Assembly: GCF_013155125.1 (NCBI RefSeq)
Contig: NZ_CP053564.1
Coordinates: 1,185,501 to 1,249,500, forward strand
DNA length: 64,000 bases
Direction: 5' to 3'
Origin: Pseudonocardia broussonetiae
GTDB taxonomy: Bacteria; Actinomycetota; Actinomycetes; Mycobacteriales; Pseudonocardiaceae
A program made the position numbers and the translations under genes. Of this stretch, positions 12,642 to 25,744 are shown piece after piece (within the stretch, counting starts at the first letter, position 1; each line of letters starts with the position of its first letter). The notes under the pieces are model-generated. The model made no database searches and was not told the DNA's origin. It saw only the letters and a list, made by a program, of their open reading frames with translations.

Positions 12642-13250
12642 TCAGAGCAGCCCGTGCGCCCGCGCGTTCGCGATGACCTGGGCGCGGTTGCGGGCCTGCA
12701 GCTTGCCCATGACGTTGTGCAGGTAGGTCTTGACCGTGTTCACCGACAGCCCGAGCTGCTCGCCGATCTCGACGTTGGTGTGGCCGAACGCGACCAGCCG
12801 CAGGACGTCGTACTCGCGAGGAGTGACCGGGGCGGCGGCCGAGCCGGCGGTGCCGGCACCGTCGTAGCGGCCCGTGCGGAACACCTCGCGCAGCGCGTCG
12901 CGCAGCACCGTGCCCGACGCGTCCTTGACGACGAGCCCGCACGCGCCCGCGGCCAGCGACGGGGCCACCGCGGCGTGCTCGGGGAACGCGGTGAACAGCA
13001 GCACGCGGCTGGCGGGTGAGACCTCGCGGATCCGGGGCACGACGTCGACGGCCACGGCGTCGGGCAGGCGCAGGTCGAGCAGCACCACGTCGGGCTTCTC
13101 CGCGGCGCAGAGCCGGACGGCCGCGGCCGCGTCGGCGGCGCTCCCGACGACGCGGATGTCGCCGTGGCGGTCGAGCTGGGTGACCACGCCGTCGCGCACC
13201 ACCGGGTGGTCGTCGACGACGACGACCCGGATGCCGCGACCGCTCAGCAC
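12642..13250 (-). CDS. LuxR/NarL-family response regulator
   Basis: A 202-aa two-component regulator. The receiver domain begins IRVVVVDDHPVVRDGV; the phosphoacceptor Asp is in DVVLLDLRLPD and the conserved Lys in VVKDASG. The C-terminal LuxR HTH contains TPREYDVLRLVAFGHTNVEI and LGLSVNTVKTYLHNVM. The GTG at 13250 overlaps the end of the kinase gene, so the two are co-translated partners. The operon also contains an acyl-CoA ligase and faces a terpene-dehydratase-like gene, which are likely but unproven targets. Confidence 0.92.
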   Translation of the reverse strand: MLSGRGIRVVVVDDHPVVRDGVVTQLDRHGDIRVVGSAADAAAAVRLCAAEKPDVVLLDLRLPDAVAVDVVPRIREVSPASRVLLFTAFPEHAAVAPSLAAGACGLVVKDASGTVLRDALREVFRTGRYDGAGTAGSAAAPVTPREYDVLRLVAFGHTNVEIGEQLGLSVNTVKTYLHNVMGKLQARNRAQVIANARAHGLL

Positions 13251-14401
13251 GGCAGCTCGATGCGCCAGGTCGCGCCGCCCTCCGGCGGCGACGCCACGCG
13301 CACGCTCCCGCCGAGCCGGGCGGCCGCGTCGGCGGTGTGGGTGAGGCCGATGCCCGGCGCGTGGTCGGCCGGGAGGCCCCGACCGTCGTCGGTGACGGCC
13401 ACGACGATCCGGTCGCCGCGGGGGTGGTGCCCGGCGGTGACGACGACGGCCCCGGCCCGCGCGTGCTTCTCCACGTTGAGCAGCGCCTCCCGGAACGCGG
13501 CCACCAGCACCTCCGTGCCCGCGGGCGGGAGCCGCGGTGGGTCCTCGTCGAGGACGACGAGCTCGGCGGGGACGCCGGTGCGGTCGGTGAACGCGGTGCA
13601 GTCGGCCTGCAGCGTCACGGCCAGCGCGAGGGCCGACGGCGAGGCGCGCAGCGTCCGCAGGGAGTCGCGCAGCGCCGTGGAGGCCTCGCTCGCCTGGCGC
13701 TGCAGCCGGTCGAGGCGGGCGACGAGCTCGGGGTCGCCGCCCGCGGTCTCGGCCAGCCCCGCCACCCCGGAGCCGATGGCGAACAGCAGCGCCCCGACGC
13801 TGTCGTGCAGCGCCGCGGCGACGCGGCTGCGCTCCTCGTGCACGGCGACCTCGCGGGCCAGCCGCGCCTGCTCCGCCACGGCGACGGCCAGCGCCGCCTC
13901 GTCGGCCACGGCGCGCGCCCGCTCGACCGCGCGGTCGCCGAACGCCCCGTCGACGCGGGCACCCACGGCCAGCACCCCGAGCACCCGGCCCGCGCGCCGG
14001 ACCGGCACCGCGAGCAGGCGGCGGACGCCCTCGGCCTCGATGTGCCCGTCGAAGGTGTGGGTGATGCCCGTGGCGCGGAGGTAGTCGTCGACCCAGAGGG
14101 GGCTCGCGGTGTCGTGCACCTTGCCGGTGAGGCCGAGCCCGCGGGGGACGCGCAGCCCGCGCAGCAGGCCGGTGCGGTCGCCGTGGACCTGCCCCAGCAC
14201 GAGGTACTCGCCGTGCTCGTCGTCGCCGGGCACGGGCTCGGCCACCCACGTGACGTCACCGTCGGCCGCGAGGCGCTCCAGCGTGGCGCGGAGCGCGGTG
14301 CGGCGGTCCAGCAGCGCGACCAGCTCGGCCTGCTCCCGGGCGACCGCCTCGAGCTCGTCGTCCACCGCGCCATTCAACGCCGACGCGGCGGCACCTGTCA
14401 C
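13244..14401 (-). CDS. GAF-domain sensor histidine kinase (HisKA_3/HATPase type)
   Basis: A 385-aa soluble kinase with no transmembrane segment. A GAF-like sensor domain occupies about residues 45-175. It is followed by the HisKA_3 dimerisation helix with phospho-His in ALHDSVGALLFAIG and an HATPase domain (ALLNVEKHARAG as N-box, DDGRGLP as G1 box, GIGLTH as G2 box). The GTG at 14401 overlaps the ligase stop by 4 bp. Cytoplasmic GAF sensing suggests a small-molecule or redox ligand; none can be named. Confidence 0.9.
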   Translation of the reverse strand: MTGAAASALNGAVDDELEAVAREQAELVALLDRRTALRATLERLAADGDVTWVAEPVPGDDEHGEYLVLGQVHGDRTGLLRGLRVPRGLGLTGKVHDTASPLWVDDYLRATGITHTFDGHIEAEGVRRLLAVPVRRAGRVLGVLAVGARVDGAFGDRAVERARAVADEAALAVAVAEQARLAREVAVHEERSRVAAALHDSVGALLFAIGSGVAGLAETAGGDPELVARLDRLQRQASEASTALRDSLRTLRASPSALALAVTLQADCTAFTDRTGVPAELVVLDEDPPRLPPAGTEVLVAAFREALLNVEKHARAGAVVVTAGHHPRGDRIVVAVTDDGRGLPADHAPGIGLTHTADAAARLGGSVRVASPPEGGATWRIELPC

Positions 14402-15945
14402 GGGGTGAACTGCTTGATGAGCTCGCGGCGCATGATCTTCCCCGTCGACGTCGCGGGCAGCGCGTCGACGAACCGGACCAGCCGCGGGCGCTTGTAGGCC
14501 GCCAGGTGCCCGGCCGTGTGCGCGATGAGCTCCTCCTCGGTCGGGCTCGTCCCGGCGGCCGGCACGACGTAGGCGCAGGCCAGCTCGCCGCGCACCGGGT
14601 CGGGCACCGGCCCCACCGCCACCATCGCGACGGCGGGGTGCCCGGCCAGCACGCGCTCGACCTCGGCGGGGTAGACGTTGTAGCCGCCCGTGATGATCAT
14701 GTCCTTGCGCCGGTCGACGACGAAGACGTGCCCGGTCTCGTCCATCGTGGCGACGTCGCCGGTGTGCAGCCAGCCGTCGGGCTCGATCGCCTCGGCCGTC
14801 GCCGTCGGGTTGCCGTGATAGCCGATCATGACGATCGGGCCGCGCACCATCAGCTCACCCGGGACCCCCGGGGCCGCGTCGCGCCGCACGTCCTCGAGGT
14901 CGGCGATGCGCACCTGCACCCCGGGCAGCGAGACACCGATCGAGCCGGGCACCGGCGGCGCGTGCAGGGGGTGGGTGGTGCCGAGCCCGGCGATCTCGGT
15001 CATGCCCCACAGCTCGATCAGCGGGGCGCCGGAGCGGGTCTCCCAGCGCTCGATCGTGGACAGCGCGATCGTCTGCCCGCCGACCGTGCACCGCGTGAGC
15101 GACGACAGGTCGGCGTCGGCGATGCCGGGGTCGGCGAGCAGCATCGCGTACATCGCCGGCACGCCCTCGAACAGCGTGGCCCGGTGCTCGCCGATCAGCC
15201 GCAGCGCCTCGCCCGGCGCGAACCGCTCCATCAGCACGACGGTGCCGCCGGCGAGGAACGTCCCGTTGATCGCGACGTTGCCGTAGACGTGCGGCGCCGG
15301 CAGCGCCGTGACGACGACGTCGCCGGCGTGGCGGCCGTGCACCGTGGCCGTCGTGGCGCAGTTCCACAGCACCGCCCGGTGGCTCTGCACCGCGCCCTTG
15401 GGGTGACCGGTCGTGCCCGAGGTGTAGCCGATCGTCGACGGCGCCGCGGGGTCCGTGACGACCTCCGGCACGGGGTCCGTGCAGGCCAGGACCTCGGCGA
15501 AGCCCACGGCCCCGTCGGCCTCCCCGTACGCGACGACGGTGCCGAGCTCGGGGAGGTCGCGCGTCAGCTCGACGACGGTGCCGGCCTGCTCGGCGCTGGT
15601 GAACACCGTGGCCGACCCGCAGTCGCGCAGCACGAACGCGAGCTCCTCGGGCGTCAGCATGACGTTGACCGGGTTGATGACCGCGCCCGCCTTCAGCGCG
15701 CCGTGCGCGGTGACGACCCACTCCCACCGGTTCTGCGCGTAGAGCGACACCACCTGGCCCGGGCGGACGCCGCGCACAGCGAGCCACGCCGCCACGCGGT
15801 CGCTGAGTGCGTCGAGCTCGGTGAACGTCAGCGTCCGCGTCGCCGTCACCAGCGCCGTCTTCGCGCCGAACCGCGCCGCCGCCACCCGCAGGATGTCCCC
15901 AGGACCGTCCACACCGACCTCCGCACTCAGGAGCGGACAGCTCAC
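14398..15945 (-). CDS. Acyl-CoA synthetase / AMP-dependent ligase (class I adenylate-forming)
   Basis: A 515-aa enzyme that activates a carboxylic acid to its CoA thioester through an acyl-AMP. The P-loop A3 motif is IGYTSGTTGHPKGAV, followed by the A5-like ELWGMTE, A7 WLHTGDVATMD, A8 RRKDMIITGGYNVYP and the catalytic Lys in STGKIMRREL. It heads an operon with the two-component pair and diverges from the linalool dehydratase-like gene, so its substrate may be an acid derived from that substrate. Acyl specificity cannot be read from sequence. Confidence 0.88.
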   Translation of the reverse strand: MSCPLLSAEVGVDGPGDILRVAAARFGAKTALVTATRTLTFTELDALSDRVAAWLAVRGVRPGQVVSLYAQNRWEWVVTAHGALKAGAVINPVNVMLTPEELAFVLRDCGSATVFTSAEQAGTVVELTRDLPELGTVVAYGEADGAVGFAEVLACTDPVPEVVTDPAAPSTIGYTSGTTGHPKGAVQSHRAVLWNCATTATVHGRHAGDVVVTALPAPHVYGNVAINGTFLAGGTVVLMERFAPGEALRLIGEHRATLFEGVPAMYAMLLADPGIADADLSSLTRCTVGGQTIALSTIERWETRSGAPLIELWGMTEIAGLGTTHPLHAPPVPGSIGVSLPGVQVRIADLEDVRRDAAPGVPGELMVRGPIVMIGYHGNPTATAEAIEPDGWLHTGDVATMDETGHVFVVDRRKDMIITGGYNVYPAEVERVLAGHPAVAMVAVGPVPDPVRGELACAYVVPAAGTSPTEEELIAHTAGHLAAYKRPRLVRFVDALPATSTGKIMRRELIKQFTP

Positions 15946-15965: not shown

Positions 15966-15983
15966 CACACCCGAACGGGTGTG
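15966..15983. promoter_or_regulatory. Perfect palindrome in the divergent ligase/LDI promoter
   Basis: CACACCCG-AA-CGGGTGTG, with 8-bp perfect arms, lies in the intergenic region between the ligase start (15945) and the LDI start (16017). It is a candidate operator for a dimeric regulator of both units. It also argues against an LDI start at 15981, which would lie within the palindrome. Confidence 0.55.
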
Positions 15984-16016: not shown

Positions 16017-17489
16017 GTGACGACGACGACGTTGGACGCCGACCAGCTCGGGCACCTGCGGCACTGGGACAACCTGTCGCGGCGGTTGCCCCACGACTGG
16101 TCGGGCATGCAGGGGCGGGGCCTGGGCGAGGACGACTTCGGCAGCTACCGGTTCCAGCTCGCGTACATGGTCTACGGGCTCGCGCTGACCCACCGCCACC
16201 GGCTCCCGGCCGCGCCCGGCGTGTTCCGGCCGACCATCGAGCGGCTGATCACGAAGCTGCTCGAGCCCGACGTGTGGATGTACTGGCGCGACGTCTCCCG
16301 CGGTGGCTCGGTGTTCAACGCCCACCTGTCCGACCGGCTGCACGAGGAGTGGGACCCGGTCGTCCGCGACAACATCATGTACTCGGCGTACGTGCAGTCG
16401 TGCGCGCTGCTGCACGACCAGCTCTTCGCCGACGACCGCTACGCCGAGCCCGGCTCGCTCTCGTTCCGGCACTGGTCGTTCTTCTGGGGCGGGCAGGAGA
16501 AGGTGTTCGCCTACGACCGCGACACCCTCAACGACCACCTCTACTGGCAGATGGTCGAGAACGGCTACGTCGGCGTCGCCTGCGAGCCCAACTGCGTGTT
16601 CCAGATCTGCAACCAGCCCGCGATCCTCGGCTTCCGGCTGCACGACCTGATCACCGGAGGGAACCGCGCCGAGGAGGTCGTCGCCGGGTACGAGCGGGTG
16701 TGGGCCGACTTCGGGCGCCTCGACGAGCGCGGCCACTACGCGATGATGGTCTCCGAGGACAGCCGGGCGGTGCGCGGCAACGACGCCCTGTCCCCCTGGG
16801 TCGACGCCTGGTGCGGCGCCCTGATGTCGATGTGGAACCGCGAGTTCGTCCGCGAGCACTACCCCCGCCAGGTCGCCGACTTCCTCGTCCCGGGCCCGGA
16901 CGGGACGCTGTCGGTCCGGTCGGCCCCGGCGATGCAGGTCATGGGCCAGACCGTCGTGTCCGACACCTGCGACACCGGCTGGGTCGCGGCCTGGGCCTCG
17001 GAGATGGGCGACCGCGCGACCCTCGACGGGCTGCTCGCCCACGCCGACCGGTTCATGGGCCCGAAGCGGGTCGACGGCGGCCTGCACTACCCGCGCAACG
17101 ACACCCCGACCGACGCCGACGGCCACCGCACCCTGATCGAGCCGATGACGGGCAACGTCCTGCTCGGCTACGCCCGGCTCAACGTCGCCGACGGCCTGTG
17201 GGGCCTCTACAACCGCCCGTGGGACGCCGCGCACCACGCCGAGCCCGCGCTCGTCGAGGTCGAGCGGGACGTCGAGGTCAGCCGGGCCGAGGTCGTCGAC
17301 GGCGTGCTGCACGCCCGGCTGCGGCGCGACCGCACCGTGCCCGGCGGCGGCACCGTGACGCTCGACCGGCTCGCCCCGGGCACCCGGCTGCGGCTGGACG
17401 GCCAGGAGGTCACCGGCCGCCGCGACGGCGACGCGCTCGTGGTCGAGGTGCCCGACGGGCCCGCCGTCGACCTGGTGGCCGCGCCGTGA
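16017..17489 (+). CDS. Linalool dehydratase/isomerase-like (LDI) family protein
   Basis: A 490-aa protein from GTG 16017. Its core resembles LinD of Castellaniella, which interconverts geraniol, linalool and myrcene. The diagnostic segment CEPNCVFQIC gives Cys189 and Cys198, spaced by 9 as are the catalytic Cys171/Cys180 of LinD; a third Cys sits at 193. HWDN near the N-terminus, YRFQLAYMVYG and FRHWSFFWGG are further LDI-type segments in which the LinD acid/base residues (Asp, Tyr, His) would lie. A C-terminal beta-rich extension of about 90 residues follows. No signal peptide is visible, whereas LinD is periplasmic, so this version looks cytoplasmic. The stop overlaps the Sco-like gene by 4 bp. 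Homologues exist with other or unknown alkenol substrates, so the exact reaction is uncertain. Confidence 0.72.
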   Translation: MTTTTLDADQLGHLRHWDNLSRRLPHDWSGMQGRGLGEDDFGSYRFQLAYMVYGLALTHRHRLPAAPGVFRPTIERLITKLLEPDVWMYWRDVSRGGSVFNAHLSDRLHEEWDPVVRDNIMYSAYVQSCALLHDQLFADDRYAEPGSLSFRHWSFFWGGQEKVFAYDRDTLNDHLYWQMVENGYVGVACEPNCVFQICNQPAILGFRLHDLITGGNRAEEVVAGYERVWADFGRLDERGHYAMMVSEDSRAVRGNDALSPWVDAWCGALMSMWNREFVREHYPRQVADFLVPGPDGTLSVRSAPAMQVMGQTVVSDTCDTGWVAAWASEMGDRATLDGLLAHADRFMGPKRVDGGLHYPRNDTPTDADGHRTLIEPMTGNVLLGYARLNVADGLWGLYNRPWDAAHHAEPALVEVERDVEVSRAEVVDGVLHARLRRDRTVPGGGTVTLDRLAPGTRLRLDGQEVTGRRDGDALVVEVPDGPAVDLVAAP

Positions 17490-17980
17490 CCGCCCCGCCC
17501 ATCCGCGCGACGTACTCGCTGGTCGACCACCACGGCACCCCGGTCACCGAGGGCAGCTACGCCGGCCGCTGGCAGCTCGTCCAGTTCGGGTTCACCGCCT
17601 GCAAGGTGGTGTGCCCGCGCGCGCTGGCGAAACTCGGCGCCGCGCTCGACGCCCTCGAGCGCACGTCGGGCCCCACGCCGCTGGTGCCGCTCTACGTCAG
17701 TGTCGATCCCGAGCGCGACACCCCGGACGTGCTGGCGGCGTTCCTCGCCGCGTCGCACCCGCGGTTCACCGGGCTGACCGGGACGCCCGAGCAGGTCGAC
17801 GACGCCAAGCGCGCGTTCCGCGTCTTCGCCCGGCGCCGCGACACCCCCGACGGCTACGAGGTGCCGCACACCGCGATCACCTACCTGCTCGACGCCGCCG
17901 GGCGGCCCGCGCACCACTGGCCCGACCACGCGACGGCGGAGACGATCGCGGACGACCTCCGACGCCTGCTCGCCGGGTAG
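17486..17980 (+). CDS. Sco1/SenC-family thioredoxin-fold protein without signal sequence
   Basis: A 164-aa protein whose GTG overlaps the LDI stop as GTGA. The Sco motif is CKVVC (Cys39-x3-Cys43) within FGFTACKVVCPRAL, with the third copper ligand His128 in VPHTAITYLLD. YVSVDPERDTPDVL is the family signature. Sco proteins normally are membrane-tethered or lipoproteins and deliver Cu to extracytoplasmic enzymes. Here no signal peptide, lipobox or transmembrane helix is seen. A cytoplasmic thiol-disulfide role for the coupled LDI-like enzyme, whose active site is a Cys pair, is therefore plausible but inferred. Confidence 0.8.
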   Translation: MTAPPIRATYSLVDHHGTPVTEGSYAGRWQLVQFGFTACKVVCPRALAKLGAALDALERTSGPTPLVPLYVSVDPERDTPDVLAAFLAASHPRFTGLTGTPEQVDDAKRAFRVFARRRDTPDGYEVPHTAITYLLDAAGRPAHHWPDHATAETIADDLRRLLAG

Positions 17981-19083: not shown

Positions 19084-20235
19084 TCACAGGCCCAGCGCCT
19101 TGCCGATGACCTCCTTCATGATCTCGGTGGTCCCGCCGTAGATCCGGGTGATCCGGGCGTCGGCGTAGGCGCGGGCGATCGGGTACTCGTTCATGTACCC
19201 GTAGCCCCCGTGCAGCTGCAGGCACCGGTCGACCGCCCGACCCTGCAGCTCGGTGCACCACCACTTCGCCTTCGACGCGTCGACAGCGGTGAGCTCGCCC
19301 GCGTTGAGCGCGCGCACGCAGTCGTCGACGTAGTGCTCGGCGATGTCGACCTCGGTGGCGATCTCGGCCAGCACGAACCGCGAGTTCTGGAACGACCCGA
19401 TCGGCTGCCCGAAGGCCTTCCGCTCCTTCACGTACTCCAGCGTCTGCTCCAGCGCGGTGCGCGCGGCGGCCACCGCGGCGATCCCGATGGACAGCCGCTC
19501 CTGGGGCAGGTTCGTGACGAGCTGGGTGAAGCCCTGCCCCTCCTCCGACCCGAGCAGGTTCGCCACCGGCACCCGGACGCCGGCGAACGACAGCTCCGCG
19601 GTGTCCTGGGCGTGCTGGCCGAGCTTGTCGAGGTTGCGCCCCCGCTCGAAACCGGCCATCCCCCGCTCCAGCACCAGCAGGCTCATCCCCCGGTGCTTCT
19701 GCGTGGGGTCGGTCTTCACCGCCGTGATCATCAGATCCGCGTTGATCCCGTTGGTGATGAACGTCTTCGCCCCGTCGACGACGTACTCGTCGCCCTCGCG
19801 CCGCGCGGTCGTGGCGATCGACGCGAGGTCGGAGCCGGTCCCGGGCTCGGTCATCGCGATGCCGGTGATGAGCTCCCCGGACACGATGCCGGGCAGCCAG
19901 CGCTGCTTCTGCTCGTCGTTCGCGAACGCGAGGAAGTAGGGCAGGCAGATGTCGTTGTGCAGGGTCAGGCCCAGCCCGGCCGCGGCGGCCCCGCCGCGCA
20001 TGACCTCCTCGGCGACGACGGCGTTGAACCGGAAGTCCCGCACCCCTCCCCCGCCGTACTCCTCGGGGACGTCCGTGCCGAGGAACCCGGACCGGCCGGC
20101 GGCGGTGTAGAGCTCCCGGGGGACGATCCCGGCGGCCGCCCACCGCTCGTGGTGCGGCACCACCTCGGTGTCGAGGAAGCGCCGGAACGACTCGCGGAAC
20201 GCCTCGTGCTCGGTCTCGTACAGGGTGCGGCGCAT
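19084..20235 (-). CDS. Acyl-CoA dehydrogenase (long-chain-type active site)
   Basis: A 383-aa flavoenzyme catalysing alpha,beta-dehydrogenation of an acyl-CoA. Seen are ITGIAMTEPGTGSDLASI (FAD/substrate loop), KAFGQPIGSFQNSRF, and the C-terminal IYGGTTEIMKEVIGKALGL. Gly replaces the Glu found in the YEGT motif of medium-chain enzymes. As in the long-chain group, the catalytic Glu is expected in helix G, present here as LPQERLSIG. The ATG overlaps the ferredoxin stop by one base (TGATG). It is the last gene of the accD-to-ACAD operon. Confidence 0.93.
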   Translation of the reverse strand: MRRTLYETEHEAFRESFRRFLDTEVVPHHERWAAAGIVPRELYTAAGRSGFLGTDVPEEYGGGGVRDFRFNAVVAEEVMRGGAAAAGLGLTLHNDICLPYFLAFANDEQKQRWLPGIVSGELITGIAMTEPGTGSDLASIATTARREGDEYVVDGAKTFITNGINADLMITAVKTDPTQKHRGMSLLVLERGMAGFERGRNLDKLGQHAQDTAELSFAGVRVPVANLLGSEEGQGFTQLVTNLPQERLSIGIAAVAAARTALEQTLEYVKERKAFGQPIGSFQNSRFVLAEIATEVDIAEHYVDDCVRALNAGELTAVDASKAKWWCTELQGRAVDRCLQLHGGYGYMNEYPIARAYADARITRIYGGTTEIMKEVIGKALGL

Positions 20236-20438
20236 CAGGTTCCCCCGTCGTCGGCCCGCAGCGCGGCGACCGGGCAGGCGGACACGCCGAGCCGCGCCGC
20301 GTCCTCCTCGCCCGCCGGCACCGGCCGGTCCTGCCCGACGGCGCTGTAGCCGTCGTCGTCGAGCGGGAACAGGTCCGGGTCGACGACGTAGCACTGGCTG
20401 TGCGCCTCGCAGAGCGAGGAGTCCACGCTGATCCTCAT
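20235..20438 (-). CDS. [3Fe-4S] ferredoxin, P450 redox partner
   Basis: A 67-aa ferredoxin with only three cluster cysteines: Cys10 and Cys16 in LCEAHSQC, and Cys55 in SACPVAAL. The position of the fourth ligand of a 4Fe-4S cluster is His13 or Ala12 here, the pattern of [3Fe-4S] ferredoxins paired with bacterial P450s. The ATG overlaps the P450 stop as ATGA. It should carry electrons from a ferredoxin reductase, not encoded in this window, to the adjacent P450. Confidence 0.93.
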   Translation of the reverse strand: MRISVDSSLCEAHSQCYVVDPDLFPLDDDGYSAVGQDRPVPAGEEDAARLGVSACPVAALRADDGGT

Positions 20439-21667
20439 ACCGCGGCCGCCTGCCCGGCCCGGTGCTCCACCGGCAGCGCGGCCAGCGAGCGCGATGCGAG
20501 GCTGTCCTTCCACTCGGGCTCCCCGGCCAGGCGGAGCCCGGGCAGGCGCTCGACGATGCGGCCCAGCGCGATCCGGGTCTCCATCCGGGCCAGCTGCGCG
20601 CCGATGCAGGCGTGGATCCCCTTCCCGAACGCGATGTGCGGGTTGGGGGTGCGACCGATGTCGAGCCGGTCGGGATCGGCGAACCGGGTCGCGTCGCGGT
20701 TGGCCGAGGCCAGCACGAGGTGGACGCGCTGCCCGGGCGAGATCGCGCGCCCGGCGATCTCGGTGTCGGCCACGACCCAGCGGTTGAGGACCTTGATCGG
20801 GCCCTCGAACCGCAGCAGCTCCTCGACGGCCGGGGCCAGCAGGTCCGGCTCGGCCCGGAGCCGGTCGAGCTGGTCGGGGTGGCGCAGCAGCGCCAGCGTG
20901 GCGTTGGCGATCGAGTTGGTGGTGGTCTCGTGCCCGGCGAACAGCAGCAGCGCGCACATCGCGACGAGCTCGTCGTCGGCGAGGCGGTCGTCGCCGTCCT
21001 CGTCGGTCGCCATCATCGCCGTGAGCATGTCCTCGCCCGGCTCGCGGCGGCGCAGCGCGATCAGCCCGCGGAAGTAGTCGTCCATCTCCCGCAGCCCGCG
21101 CAGCGCCCGCTCGTGACGGTCGGCCCGGGCCGTGCCGCCGGTGCCGAACGCCACCAGCGCGAGCTCGTCGGACCAGTCGCGGAACCGGTCGCGGTCGGCC
21201 ACCGGGGCGCCGAGCATGGTCGCGATGACGGTCGCCGGCAGCGGGTAGGCGACCGCGGAGATGAGGTCGCCCGTGCCGGCGAACCCGTCGAGCAGCCCGT
21301 CGACCAGCCCGGTGATCTGCTCGCCCATCGCCGAGATGCGCTGGGCCTTGAACGCCCCGCCGGCCAGCTTGCGCAGCCGGGTGTGCACCGGCGGGTCGTT
21401 GACCACCATCCAGCCCGACAGCAGCTCCAGCACCCGGTCCGACGCCGCGGTCGCGTCCGACGAGCGCCGGGCCTCGCGCAGCGGGCGGACGCGGTCGCTG
21501 GACAGCGCCTTGTTCTGGAACGCGGCCGACACGTCGTCGTAGCGGGTGAGCAGCCACGCCCGGTGCGCGTCGCTCCAGTGCACCGGGTCGTGCTCGCGCA
21601 GGGCCGCCAGCACCGCGTAGGGGTCGGCGCTGGCCCGCCGCGTCAGCAGGTCGTCATCCAGGTGCAT
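20435..21667 (-). CDS. Cytochrome P450 monooxygenase
   Basis: A 410-aa soluble bacterial P450. The haem loop is FGKGIHACIG with axial Cys354. The I-helix oxygen-activation motif is AGHETT (244-249) and the K-helix ExxR is EELLR (282-286). It overlaps the upstream LLM gene by 14 bp and the downstream ferredoxin by 4 bp. With acyl-CoA dehydrogenase, hydratase and carboxylase in the same operon, it probably hydroxylates the catabolic substrate or a chain intermediate. The CYP family is not assigned. Confidence 0.95.
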   Translation of the reverse strand: MHLDDDLLTRRASADPYAVLAALREHDPVHWSDAHRAWLLTRYDDVSAAFQNKALSSDRVRPLREARRSSDATAASDRVLELLSGWMVVNDPPVHTRLRKLAGGAFKAQRISAMGEQITGLVDGLLDGFAGTGDLISAVAYPLPATVIATMLGAPVADRDRFRDWSDELALVAFGTGGTARADRHERALRGLREMDDYFRGLIALRRREPGEDMLTAMMATDEDGDDRLADDELVAMCALLLFAGHETTTNSIANATLALLRHPDQLDRLRAEPDLLAPAVEELLRFEGPIKVLNRWVVADTEIAGRAISPGQRVHLVLASANRDATRFADPDRLDIGRTPNPHIAFGKGIHACIGAQLARMETRIALGRIVERLPGLRLAGEPEWKDSLASRSLAALPVEHRAGQAAAV

Positions 21668-22604
21668 GCGCGTCCGTCCTCTCGTGCAGGAGCCGGGGCA
21701 GGCCGGCGGCGACCAGCTCGACGTGCCGGTCGACCAGGTCCGGCGCGAGCCCGGCGATGTCGGCGAAGCAGAAGACGTCGGTGACGGGCAGCCCGGCGGT
21801 GCGCTCGGCGATCCGCTCCGCGGCCTGCTCGGCCGTGCACACCTCGAGCTTCGGGAACGCGGCGGAGCCGCGGGCCGCGCCGCGGTCGTTGCCGGAGTAG
21901 CTGCTGCGGTTGTGCCGCCCGGACGGGCGGATCCGCTCGCGGGCGGCGTCCGGGTCGTCGGCGAGGAACAGGTTGACCAGCCCGCCCATCCGGGCCGCGC
22001 CGGGGTCGTGGCCGCCGGCCGCGAGGCCCTCGCGGTACGGGCCGAGCAGCTCGGGGTCGATCCACAGCAGGCCGGCGCCCGTGCGCCCGGCGATGCGCGC
22101 GCCGCGCGGGCCGCGCGCCCCCACCCAGACGGGCACCGGGCGCTGCACCGGCGGCGGGGTCGCGGTGCCGTCGGCCCAGAACCGCTCGACGTCGCCGATC
22201 GCGCTCTCCAGCGCGTCGTACCGGCCCCGGAAGTCGGCGCCGACCGCGGCGAACTCCGGCTCGCGCCACCCGGCGCCCAGCCCCAGCTCCAGCCGCCCGT
22301 CGGAGAGGATGTCGACGACCGCGGCCTGCTCGGCCAGCGCCCGTGGGTGCGTCAGCGGCGCCACCGCCACGGCCGTCCCGACCCGCACGCGCTCGGTGCG
22401 CGCCGCGATCGCCGCGGCGAAGGTCAGCGGCGCCGGCAGGTAGCCGTCGTCGAACCCGTGGTGCTCGCTCGTCCAGATCGCGTCGACGCCGCGCCGCTCG
22501 GCCTCGCCGATCCGGCGCAGCGCGTCGGCGTAGACCTGCGGCCACGGCCGCGCGGTGCCGGGGTTGCGGAGGTCGTAGTAGAGGCCGACCCGGATCCGGG
22601 TCAC
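21654..22604 (-). CDS. LLM-class flavin-dependent oxidoreductase (bacterial luciferase-like, probably F420)
   Basis: A 316-aa TIM-barrel protein of the luciferase-like monooxygenase superfamily from GTG 22604. IRVGLYYDLRNP, IWTSEHHGFDDGYLPAPL, ERVRVGTAVAVAPLTHPRALAEQ and GRLELGLGAGWREPEF are typical. The actinobacterial context suggests cofactor F420, though FMN cannot be excluded. The start overlaps the SnoaL gene stop by 4 bp. Confidence 0.85.
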   Translation of the reverse strand: MTRIRVGLYYDLRNPGTARPWPQVYADALRRIGEAERRGVDAIWTSEHHGFDDGYLPAPLTFAAAIAARTERVRVGTAVAVAPLTHPRALAEQAAVVDILSDGRLELGLGAGWREPEFAAVGADFRGRYDALESAIGDVERFWADGTATPPPVQRPVPVWVGARGPRGARIAGRTGAGLLWIDPELLGPYREGLAAGGHDPGAARMGGLVNLFLADDPDAARERIRPSGRHNRSSYSGNDRGAARGSAAFPKLEVCTAEQAAERIAERTAGLPVTDVFCFADIAGLAPDLVDRHVELVAAGLPRLLHERTDAHAPG

Positions 22605-23374
22605 GTCCGGGCCCCGGCCAGGGCCCGCGCGAAGCCGAGGCGGTCCCGGACGACGCGGCCGTCGGTGACCCGGCCACCGGTGACGGTGACGAGCCCGACC
22701 AGGGACAGCGTCGCGTCGGTGCCGGTCCGCTCCACCCCGTCGAGGCCGCCGGCGTAGCGCCCGGTCCGGGTGAGCCTGAAGGCGACCCGGTCGCCCGCGG
22801 AGAACAGGTCGTCGACGGTGGTGCGCGCGTCGTCGAGGTCGGGGCCGGCGCTGCCGTCGTCGTAGCGGACCGCGTCGCCGGGCAGGCCCGCGTCGATCCA
22901 CTCCCGCACGGCCGCCTCGGCCGCGGGGTCGGCCGACACCGCCGGGGTGTCCCACGGGGCGAGGGCGGGTGGCTCCGCGGAGGCGGGCCGTCCGGAGGCG
23001 AGCTGGACCCGCCGGGCGTGGTAGTCCTGCTCGACCAGGTTCTCGGTGAGCCGGGTGCCGTTCCAGCGGTAGAGGCCGAGCCCGCCCCACACCGCGACCG
23101 CGCCGCCGTGCCGGCTCGACGCGCCGTGCTCGGAGAACCGCATGGCGAGCCGGTCGCCGTTGGTGACGATCTCGTGGACGGTGAGGCCGAGGCCCGGGAA
23201 CTGGCGGAACTGCGCCTGCGCGGCCGGGACGTAGGCGTCGTCGCGCCCGGCGACGAGGTGCGGGCCCATCCGCAGCGCGTAGTCGGGCTCCATGATCTCG
23301 GCGCACACCGACGTGTCGTGCCGGTTCGTGTAGTCGACGACGTAGCGGCGCATGAGCGCGACGAGGGGCTCCAT
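22601..23374 (-). CDS. Tandem SnoaL/NTF2-like protein
   Basis: A 257-aa protein that appears to hold two NTF2-like (SnoaL) modules: residues about 1-125 (MRRYVVDYTNRHD...VHEIVTNGDRLAMRF) and about 155-250 (RTTVDDLFSAGDRVAFRLTRTG). The fold hosts isomerases, hydrolases and ligand-binding proteins, and no activity can be assigned. The ATG overlaps the enoyl-CoA hydratase stop by one base. Confidence 0.75.
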   Translation of the reverse strand: MEPLVALMRRYVVDYTNRHDTSVCAEIMEPDYALRMGPHLVAGRDDAYVPAAQAQFRQFPGLGLTVHEIVTNGDRLAMRFSEHGASSRHGGAVAVWGGLGLYRWNGTRLTENLVEQDYHARRVQLASGRPASAEPPALAPWDTPAVSADPAAEAAVREWIDAGLPGDAVRYDDGSAGPDLDDARTTVDDLFSAGDRVAFRLTRTGRYAGGLDGVERTGTDATLSLVGLVTVTGGRVTDGRVVRDRLGFARALAGART

Positions 23375-24183
23375 CAGCGGCCCTCGAACACCGGCGCGCG
23401 CTTCTCGGCGAACGCGGCGATGCCCTCGGCCGCGTCGGCCGTGGCGTGCAGCGTGGTCAGCGCGGCGGTGGAGTGGTCGAACTCCCCCCGGTCGACGCCC
23501 CGGTTAACCAGGCTCTTCCCGGCGGCCACGGCCAGCGGTGCGGCGGCCGCGACGCGGACGGCCAGCGCGCGCGCCACGTCCATCAGCTCGGCGGCGGGCA
23601 CCACCTTCTGCGCGAGCCCGATCTGCTGCGCCGTCGCGGCGTCCACGCGCTCGCCCGCGAACATCATCAGCTTGGTCCAGTGCCGCCCGATCACCGACGG
23701 CGCGCGCAGCACGCCGAAGCCGGGGACCAGCCCGACGGCGGTCTCGGGCATGCCGAACGTGGCCGTGTCGGCGGCGACGACGATGTCGCAGGCGAGGGCG
23801 AGCTCGCACCCGCCGCCCATCGCGTAGCCGTTGACGGCGGCGATCACCGGCAGCGGGCACTCCTCCACCGCCGCGAAGGTGCGCATGCAGTCCTGCTGGA
23901 ACGCGCGCTGCGCGGTGACGTCGGCCAGCGCGGCGAAGCTCGTGATGTCCCCGCCCGCGGAGAACGCCCGGTCGCCCGCGCCGGTGATCACGACGGCGCG
24001 GGTGCTGCCGTCGGCCTCCAGCGCGGCCAGGGCCTCGCGCAGCTCGGGCCAGAAGGTGCGACCCATCGCGTTGAGCTTCTCCGGCGCGTCGATCGTGATC
24101 ACGGCGACCGGCCCGTCGGTCTCGCAGCGCAGGTTCGGCGGCGCCGCGCCGTCGTGCCGGTCGACCGCTGCCGTCGTGGTCAC
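23374..24183 (-). CDS. Enoyl-CoA hydratase/isomerase family protein
   Basis: A 269-aa crotonase-fold enzyme from GTG 24183. ITIDAPEKLNAMG starts the fold. The oxyanion hole is supplied by RAFSAGGDITSF and AVNGYAMGGGCELALACD; MPETAVGLVPGFG carries the position of the second catalytic Glu. It probably hydrates an enoyl-CoA in the operon pathway. The start overlaps the accD stop by 4 bp. Confidence 0.92.
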   Translation of the reverse strand: MTTTAAVDRHDGAAPPNLRCETDGPVAVITIDAPEKLNAMGRTFWPELREALAALEADGSTRAVVITGAGDRAFSAGGDITSFAALADVTAQRAFQQDCMRTFAAVEECPLPVIAAVNGYAMGGGCELALACDIVVAADTATFGMPETAVGLVPGFGVLRAPSVIGRHWTKLMMFAGERVDAATAQQIGLAQKVVPAAELMDVARALAVRVAAAAPLAVAAGKSLVNRGVDRGEFDHSTAALTTLHATADAAEGIAAFAEKRAPVFEGR

Positions 24184-25744
24184 CGGATCCCCCCGGTGCG
24201 TCCGTGGCTCGCGATGTCGATGCTCGTGGCGATGACGGCGCGGGTCTGCGCCGGCTCGATGACGTCGTCGAGCGAGAGGTTCGCCGCGGCCTCCCACGGC
24301 TCGGCCTCGCTGATCCACTCCGCCGTGAGCTCCTCGACCAGCGCCGCGTGCGCGGCCGGGCCCTGCTCGGCCAGGACCTTCTCGAGGCGGCGGCGGTGGA
24401 TCGTGCGGATGCCGGTCTCGGGGGCCATGAACCCGAGCTCGGCGGAGGGCCAGGCGTAGAGGAAGTCCGGCCGGGTCGGCCGCCCGCCCATCCGAAGTGC
24501 CCGCCGCCGTAGGCCTTGCGCAGGACCACGCCCACCTTCGGCACCCGCGCCTCGGCGATCTGGGAGACCAGCGCCTCGTAGCCGTGCAGGATGCCCCCGC
24601 GCTCGGCCTGGGTGCCGATCATCAGCCCCGGGACGTCGTGCAGGAACACCAGCGGGAGGCCGAACGTGTCGCACATCTGGACGAACGTGCGCTCCTTGGC
24701 CAGCGCGGCGGGGTCCAGCGCCCCCGCGCGCACGATCGGCTGGTTGCCGACCAGGCCGACCGGGCGGCCCTCGATCCGCGCCAGCGCGCAGAGGACCGAC
24801 CCGCCCCAGCCGTCGGCCCAGGGCAGGATGCTGGCCTCGTCGGCGAGGCAGGCGAAGACGTCGCGCACGTCGTAGCCGGCCCGGGACCCGAGCGGCACGA
24901 TCGACGCGAGATCGGCGGGGTCGCGGGCGGGCGGGAGCGGCGGTGCCGTCGGGGCCGGCTGCGACGAGTTGGGCGGCAGGTAGGACAGGAACGCCGCGAT
25001 CGCGTCCATCGCGTCGGCCTCGGACTCCACGACGAGGTGGGCGTTGCCGGCCTCGGTGGCCGCCTGCGGCCCGCCCAGCTCGGCGTCGGTGACCTTCTCG
25101 CCGATCGCGGGCTCGACCACGGACGGCCCGGAGAGCGCGAGCGAGGCCGACCGGAGCATCACCACGAAGTGCGCCGTGGAGGCGTGCAGGGCGGAGTCGC
25201 CGTAGGACGGACCGAGGACCGCCGCGGCGCGCGGGACGACCGGCTCACCGGGCGGCGGCTTGAGGAACGAGGTGAAGTCCAGCGGCAGCCCGGAGAACCG
25301 CCAGCCCGAGACGTCGGGCATGCGCCCGCCGTCGGCGTCGCAGAGCAGCACGAGCGGGAAGCCGTGGCGCTGCGCGTGCTCGATGAGCCGGCCCTGCTTG
25401 CGCATGCTGACCGGGGCCGTGGTGCCGGCGACCACGCTCGCGTCGATGCCGATCACGCCGATCCGTCTGCCGTCGAGCAGGCCGAAGCCGGTGACGACCG
25501 CGTCGCCCGGGATGTGCTTGGCGGTCCGCAGCTCCGGCAGGGCCAGCGCGCCGATCTCGAACCACGAGCCGGGGTCGACCAGCATGTCGATGCGCTCGCG
25601 GACGGGCAGCCTGCCGGACTCGCGGTGCCGGCGCAGGCCCTCGGGCCCACCCATCTCCAGCGAACGCTCGCGGCGCTCGCGGAGTTCGGCGATCCTGTCC
25701 GCCATCGAGGCGGCCGGTCGCGTGTCAACGCTCTCGACGGTCAC
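24180..25744 (-). pseudogene. Acyl-CoA carboxylase carboxyltransferase (beta) subunit, interrupted by a 1-nt frameshift
   Basis: The first ~417 codons read as a biotin-dependent carboxyltransferase: RIAELRERRERSLEMGG, RIDMLVDPGSWFEIG, GRRIGVIGIDASVVAGT, then the C-terminal domain LPLVFLHDVPGLMIG and LRKAYGGGHFG. Near 24492 the frame breaks. The expected continuation (MGGRPTRPDFLYAWPSAELG to SHGRTGGIR) is intact in another frame and ends at 24180. The sequence around GGGHF reads as if one base were missing before the ATG of MGGRP. Without the lesion the protein would be about 521 aa, normal for the family. It is divergent from the biotin carboxylase gene, its expected partner. It may be a true mutation, a sequence error or, less likely, programmed recoding. 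Confidence 0.85.

Follow-up and report, generated by a model that had tools for sequence, protein, structure and literature searches.

Two enzymes provide the closest described counterparts for proteins of the linalool dehydratase/isomerase (LDI) family: LinD of Castellaniella defragrans, which is periplasmic, and the linalool isomerase (Lis) of Thauera linaloolentis. LinD carries a capping disulfide between C48 and C101 as well as a cysteine pair formed by C171 and C180. Lis is described as depending on a reductant and as anchored in the membrane by four predicted N-terminal transmembrane segments, with an LDI-related domain for which a cytoplasmic location is predicted; its gene stands apart from its neighbours (PMC4791888). 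Proteins of the Sco1/SenC family (PF02630), such as human SCO1 and Bradyrhizobium ScoI, combine the Sco fold with a CxxxC motif and a distal histidine, and their partner is cytochrome oxidase. The CuA site in subunit II of that oxidase is extracytoplasmic, holds two coppers, and contains a CxxxC motif. This cysteine pair is the one served by Sco, whose role is described in PMC9145763. In the literature on LDI together with SenC, SCO1 or copper, we found no earlier description of an LDI-Sco system, in agreement with the initial annotation of the DNA analysed here, which knew of none.

Here, we analysed 64,000 nucleotides of the Pseudonocardia broussonetiae genome (the whole stretch is called the window below). 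Its forward strand encodes an LDI-family protein of 490 amino acids (16017 to 17489; GTG start at 16017, TGA stop at 17487 to 17489), followed by a leaderless Sco-family protein of 164 amino acids (17486 to 17980; GTG start at 17486, stop at 17978 to 17980). The LDI stop and the Sco start have the letters GTGA in common, which confirms the 4 bp overlap from which the initial annotation had proposed translational coupling. The LDI family assignment also holds, as the Ldi profile (PF18566) matched the first protein with 361.5 bits against a cut-off of 26.1 and its predicted fold is that of LinD; further family comparisons ruled out a wrong family. For the second protein, the SCO1/SenC profile (PF02630) gave 143.7 bits against a cut-off of 22.8 and fold matching returned the Sco fold, while NCBIfam had no model that matched either protein. 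The 7.29 Mb host genome holds a single LDI match, and its only other SCO1-SenC match lies exactly on the cut-off (22.8 bits). Pseudonocardia oceani was the closest named relative found, with an LDI identity of 95%.

Compared with these known systems, the window LDI is a PF18566 member but not LinD proper: it lacks a signal sequence, has a Sco partner, and has no equivalent of the C48-C101 disulfide, its first cysteine being C129. LinD H129 aligns to Y125 and LinD N175 to C193 of the window LDI, whose C-terminal beta region (residues 409-490) falls outside the LinD match. With Lis, it has in common the predicted cytoplasmic placement of the LDI domain, and a need for a reductant would be a further likeness; the membrane anchor and the isolated gene of Lis set it apart. 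The window Sco is likewise a PF02630 member but not a cytochrome-oxidase Sco. It shares family, fold, CxxxC and distal histidine with SCO1 and ScoI, and differs from the Sco1/SenC chaperones in having no anchor or leader, belonging to a clade of its own, carrying a CRVVCPR-type loop, and having as its partner an LDI that, in contrast to the CuA site, is predicted to be cytosolic.

Distribution of the pair in bacteria and fungi

Scanning close LDI relatives in one genome per species gave 44 loci from actinobacteria (Pseudonocardia, Actinomycetospora, Streptomyces, Amycolatopsis, Saccharothrix, Lentzea, Kutzneria, Mycobacterium, Rhodococcus, and an actinomycetotal MAG) and proteobacteria (Rhodanobacter, Bradyrhizobium, Rhizobium, Tardiphaga, Ensifer, Rhodopseudomonas, Caulobacter, and Sphingomonas). 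At 39 of the 44 loci, an intact Sco gene lay directly downstream on the same strand, at a distance between an 8 bp overlap and a 14 bp gap. The 4 bp overlap recurred in 29 of these 39 with the chosen starts, each Sco start being set at whichever start codon was closest to the LDI stop, a choice that favours short gaps. As for the five exceptions, the Sco gene is placed one gene upstream at L035; no Sco lies inside locus L043, and the Sco of that genome has no LDI within about 1.5 kb beside it; at L063 an LDI with C193 stands next to a truncated Sco, an intact one lying elsewhere in the genome; frameshifts split both genes at L065; and both are fragmentary at L068. An LDI-type Sco match is present in all five of these genomes, that of L065 being frameshift-split. 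In Amycolatopsis jejuensis, to which L068 belongs, the LDI and Sco fragments adjoin, and the same genome has an intact pair (L039).

Whole-genome counts, in which part of the first-look candidates was scored per genome (six or seven in the LDI counts, no more than 14 or 18 in the Sco counts) and absences are not absolute, placed this LDI in 18 of 249 genomes of the window's family (E below 1e-130) and in 3 of 197 genomes of the Rhodanobacter family; Pseudonocardiaceae and the other family and genus labels of the surveyed genomes were inferred from named loci. The LDI-type Sco occurred in 19 of the same 249 genomes (E below 1e-58), and all 18 LDI genomes were among these 19, with the two matches adjacent on one strand. 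In genome G412 the Sco gene lies upstream of the LDI gene, and G540, one of the 18, has an extra broken LDI copy without a Sco match. Genome G434 has an intact Sco (L129, 4427-5082). Just upstream lies a stretch that matches LDI residues 427-486 with 53% identity, and nothing else of this LDI was detected; in this genome, the LDI has been lost and the Sco kept. The three LDI genomes of the Rhodanobacter family were the same three with an adjacent LDI-type Sco (238-243 bits). All three also contain an ordinary Sco, and the best other Sco in genomes of that family reached 147 bits. The adjacency first noted in a single genome is thus borne out across genomes (39/44 loci, 18/18, and 3/3), and the 44-locus scan rules out that it is confined to the window genome.

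Among 394 sampled genomes of the window's class, 14 apart from the window genome hold LDIs of other branches, and no Sco was detected near these LDIs within flanks of about 1.5 kb. The LDI and Sco trees correlate (Mantel r 0.576, with 0 of 2000 permutations as high), a value that was obtained from 38 loci, without L035 and L043 in addition to the rows dropped from the Sco alignment, and that shared ancestry inflates.

In fungi, the two domains occur as LDI-Sco fusions, which were found by a search limited to long proteins with this Sco type. With a Fusarium fusion as the query, both Pfam domains were present in 49 of the best 120 of 192 proteins. Among the matches listed, the named double-domain fusions are all from ascomycetes, the genera being Fusarium, Neocosmospora, Ilyonectria, Dactylonectria, Aspergillus, and Colletotrichum. 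A motif parse recognised 36 fusions among these matches, with Sco first and LDI second in 35 of them, C193 in 36/36, and CxxxC in 31/36. When aligned to the window Sco, 40 of the 49 listed fusions had all three Sco ligands, and the other nine were gapped, none being substituted. These nine (P0138, P0139, P0141, P0162, P0174, P0175, P0177, P0179, and P0181) are without the segment around one or more ligands and are probably mis-spliced or truncated gene models, because close relatives such as P0133 have the stretch. The LDI tree nests the fusions within the Sco-linked branch of bacteria, where proteins from Streptomyces and Allosphingosinicella are their neighbours. Co-occurrence and fusions together show that the pairing exceeds chance. 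One entry assigned to a fern (P0136, Adiantum nelumboides) has the LDI first and resembles a frameshifted Pseudonocardia LDI-Sco pair; it is probably contamination.

Cysteine motif, Sco ligands, and predicted location

The LinD-type cysteine pair ascribed to the window LDI by the initial annotation is present as C189 (codon 16581 to 16583, forward strand) and C198 (16608 to 16610, forward strand), which align to LinD C171 and C180. We compared 41 Sco-linked LDIs with 18 other family members (without L033, L060, L065, L068, L001, and L003; the distant LDI loci L017, L022, and L024 had no match to compare), and the C-x8-C pair was found in 41/41 and 18/18, with C189, E190, C198, and N199 invariant in both sets. 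A third cysteine, which the initial annotation did not mention, is C193 (codon 16593 to 16595, forward strand), present in all 41 proteins of the Sco-linked branch and in none of the 18 others, so that the pair becomes C-x3-C-x4-C throughout this branch. Q196, Q200, and M31 are likewise invariant in the branch and occur in 0/18 others, and two further invariant residues, H59 and H13, occur in 2/18 and 4/18. Pooled database searches, partly from the matches listed, gave 238 LDI proteins, of which 234 matched C-E-x-x-C-x4-C; in an alignment, the metagenomic protein P0085 keeps C189 and C193 and has Pro at 190 and Phe at 198, and the models P0158, P0181, and P0195 are missing the cysteine region. 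By these sequence comparisons, the extra cysteine, which creates a CxxxC, tracks the Sco partner. LDIs of other branches, whether soluble or with hydrophobic N-termini, are without C193, so that being cytoplasmic does not in itself make an LDI dependent on a Sco. What is new here is a soluble, Sco-linked LDI branch with a third cysteine.

On the side of the partner, the CKVVC motif and His128 singled out by the initial annotation were recovered as C39-KVV-C43 (17600 to 17614, forward strand) and H128 (17867 to 17869, forward strand), the distal histidine of the CxxxC...H motif. Both cysteines and the histidine occur in 40/40 aligned Scos, a set that includes the window and is without L001 and L003 (window copies), L033 (a near-duplicate), and the broken L063, L065, and L068. 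Two additional histidines, H15 and H144, are conserved in 39/40 and 36/40 bacterial Scos and in 37/49 and 41/49 fungal fusions among the matches listed. The loop of the partners is of the CRVVCPR type as opposed to CPDVCP in ordinary Scos, and they form a clade (tree support 0.996) apart from 28 ordinary Scos, which are the best-scoring ones, 27 of them from one family, with L119, L120, and L121 missed by the motif. The best fold match of the Sco protein was copper-bound ScoI, and the Sco-TlpA mixed-disulfide structure (4txo) was among the best matches. That the partner is simply the cell's ordinary cytochrome-oxidase Sco was ruled out by the separate clade and by the ordinary Sco also present in the three Rhodanobacter-family LDI-Sco genomes.

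Hydropathy bears out the claim that both proteins lack a signal sequence. Neither the N-terminus of the window LDI nor the in-frame residues upstream of it showed a LinD-type periplasmic export signal, the upstream stretch containing no segment that is hydrophobic (mean hydropathy over 17 residues, 0.61 at best), and a cryptic signal peptide from an alternative start was ruled out on the same measure. Similarly, no membrane or lipoprotein anchor typical of a cytochrome-oxidase Sco was detected by hydropathy in the 40 Sco partners: over their first 45 residues, values stay at or below 1.51 and 0/40 have a hydrophobic leader, whereas 26/28 ordinary Scos reach at least 2.0 upstream of the domain. 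The fungal fusions leave little room for a presequence, because 48 of the 49 among the matches listed have no more than 18 residues ahead of Sco residue 10 (P0156 has 48). The cytoplasmic LDI to which the initial annotation drew attention is not in itself new, because the catalytic part of the membrane-anchored Thauera linalool isomerase is also predicted to be cytoplasmic (PMC4791888). Several actinobacterial LDIs of other branches (within L004-L021) have, by eye, a long hydrophobic N-terminal region before the LDI domain, similar to that isomerase.

Gene neighbourhood

Divergent from the LDI gene, the reverse strand of the window encodes an AMP-binding acyl-CoA ligase (14398 to 15945; PF00501), a GAF histidine kinase (13244 to 14365; Pfam), and a LuxR-type response regulator (12642 to 13250; Pfam). 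Counting each query's own locus, here the window, similar genes occur in 11/45, 7/45, and 11/45 loci, respectively, with six of the regulator matches at 73% identity or above. A perfect palindrome, CACACCCGAACGGGTGTG (15966 to 15983), lies between the ligase and LDI genes and is a candidate operator. Of 12 spacers compared, six carry it unchanged (window, L025, L026, L029, L030, and L059). This is its only perfect copy in the 7.29 Mb genome, where two further copies have one mismatch; GAF kinase- and LuxR-like genes follow the ligase in five of the six palindrome loci and in L028. On the same counting basis, relatives of a Rhodanobacter zinc alcohol dehydrogenase, whose PDB relatives include benzyl alcohol dehydrogenase, were found in 13/45 loci (directly upstream in eight proteobacterial ones), and aldehyde dehydrogenase matches in 8/45, where those of L043 and L057 share 76% identity with the query from L049 and the remaining ones at most 37%. 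L043, L049, and L057 combine LDI, alcohol dehydrogenase, aldehyde dehydrogenase, and ligase. By analogy, this set resembles the steps that follow LinD, where geraniol is described as passing through geranial and geranic acid into beta-oxidation (PMC6600392, PMC4097962). No copper genes were found among the scanned part of the neighbours, and a tie of LDI-Sco to one fixed gene cluster was ruled out, as the neighbourhood varies.

Within 8 kb of the pair, the opposite strand of the window (19087-25744) encodes an acyl-CoA dehydrogenase, a ferredoxin, a P450, a luciferase-like oxidoreductase, a double SnoaL protein, an enoyl-CoA hydratase-like ORF (by sequence), and a carboxyl transferase. These genes could form the lower part of an acyclic-terpene pathway. 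The carboxyl transferase gene (23504-25744, reverse strand) has a frame change near its end, whether natural or an assembly error: PF01039 is matched up to profile position 385 of 493, and what remains of the domain seems to be encoded in a different frame.

Possible roles of the Sco partner

The pairing and the fungal fusions suggest that the Sco partner likely acts on the three-cysteine motif of the LDI in one of two ways: (i) it loads copper into the motif or (ii) it keeps the motif reduced. Our tentative choice, held with somewhat less than even confidence, is that the predicted cytosolic three-cysteine LDI and its leaderless Sco, adjacent in bacteria or fused in fungi, constitute a conserved module in which the Sco loads copper(I) onto the motif. 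The Sco would bind copper via C39, C43, and H128 and would hand Cu(I) to C189 and C193 of the LDI, in the way that secreted Scos supply the CxxxC copper site of cytochrome oxidase. A loaded, or at least reduced, LDI would catalyse the interconversion of a primary allylic alcohol with an alkene or a tertiary allylic alcohol. Oxidation and activation of the primary alcohol would fall to the enzymes encoded nearby, namely the zinc alcohol dehydrogenase, the aldehyde dehydrogenase, and the CoA ligase. The putative copper ligand triad (40/40 bacterial Scos and 40/49 listed fungal fusions) and the best fold match, copper-bound ScoI, point in this direction. Free copper is scarce in the cytosol, which counts against loading, as do the lack of copper genes in the scanned part of the neighbourhood, the unusual CRVVCPR loop in place of CPDVCP, the substitutions in P0085, the nine gapped fusions, and the truncated Sco of L063. 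In the published accounts, LinD was most likely purified cofactor-free (PMC6600392) and Scos may also work as thiol reductants (PMC9145763), and both points weigh on the same side. A further-reaching version strikes us as rather doubtful: LDI-Sco proteins of bacteria and fungi alike would be soluble cytosolic copper(I)-thiolate hydro-lyases/isomerases in which Cu(I), installed in C-x3-C-x4-C by a dedicated Sco that is fused in fungi, binds the substrate double bond, giving aerobes an oxygen-tolerant terpene hydration/isomerisation. Should this hold, neither a Sco client in the cytosol nor a dehydratase of the copper type would, to our knowledge, have been known before.

A metal-free alternative, which we regard as possible although we do not lean towards it, is that the Sco works in the cytosol as a thiol-disulfide reductase, maintaining the catalytic LDI cysteines in reduced form in aerobic cells. 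C193 would be the resolving cysteine, forming a disulfide with C189 or C198 once either is oxidised, and the Sco would then open this bond. The third cysteine, four residues from C189, is suited to a protective disulfide; the reading agrees with the thioredoxin-type fold of the Sco and the Sco-TlpA match; and co-occurrence and fusions fit it equally well. In the published accounts, LinD is sensitive to oxygen and reaches full activity only with DTT (PMC6600392), and Lis is inactive without a reductant (PMC4791888). However, His128, a metal ligand that would be superfluous for a pure reductase, is present in 40/40 bacterial Scos and in all 47 of the 49 listed fungal fusions that cover the site, and C193 is missing from LDIs without a Sco seen nearby. 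Copper loading is slightly favoured over reduction because H128 is invariant and no Sco was seen near LDIs without C193. The LDI domain of Lis, predicted to be cytoplasmic, speaks against the reductase, although the same enzyme, being of the type without C193 and predicted to face the cytoplasm, also weighs against the preference for copper (PMC4791888).

It seems unlikely that the Sco is a catalytic or regulatory subunit, one that takes part in the reaction through a residue of its own, as a peroxidase, or through a covalent thiol relay and does not mature the enzyme, even though the fungal fusion implies lasting contact, chaperones are rarely fused to their client, and this Sco group has the extra conserved histidines H15 and H144. 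We know of no catalytic precedent for a Sco. In the descriptions of LinD and Lis, both enzymes function without a partner of this kind (PMC6600392, PMC4791888). Co-inheritance of the two genes in one operon without functional contact is very improbable. The presence of the pair in distant phyla and the correlated trees would be expected of any block moved together, but little else in the neighbourhoods is conserved (after the pair itself, the most frequent gene cluster reaches 12/45 loci), co-occurrence is 18/18 and 3/3, the domain order of the fungal fusion is opposite to that of most bacterial pairs, and a single LDI residue, C193, tracks the presence of the Sco.

Whichever role applies, the LDI-Sco pairing is real and common to bacteria and fungi. 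Two protein families are joined here in one unit that recurs in Actinomycetota, Proteobacteria, and Ascomycota, and the gene fusions testify independently to contact between them. The unit opens the question of Sco clients beyond cytochrome oxidase, inside the cytosol. It is relevant, too, to how terpenes are converted in air, for example to the aerobic conversion of myrcene to geraniol by a Rhodococcus (strain MLT1), which was recorded as mechanistically unclear (PMC4097962), although this LDI branch was found in only 2 of the 28 Rhodococcus genomes searched. LDIs are wanted biocatalysts, and those of the Sco-linked branch may need their Sco.
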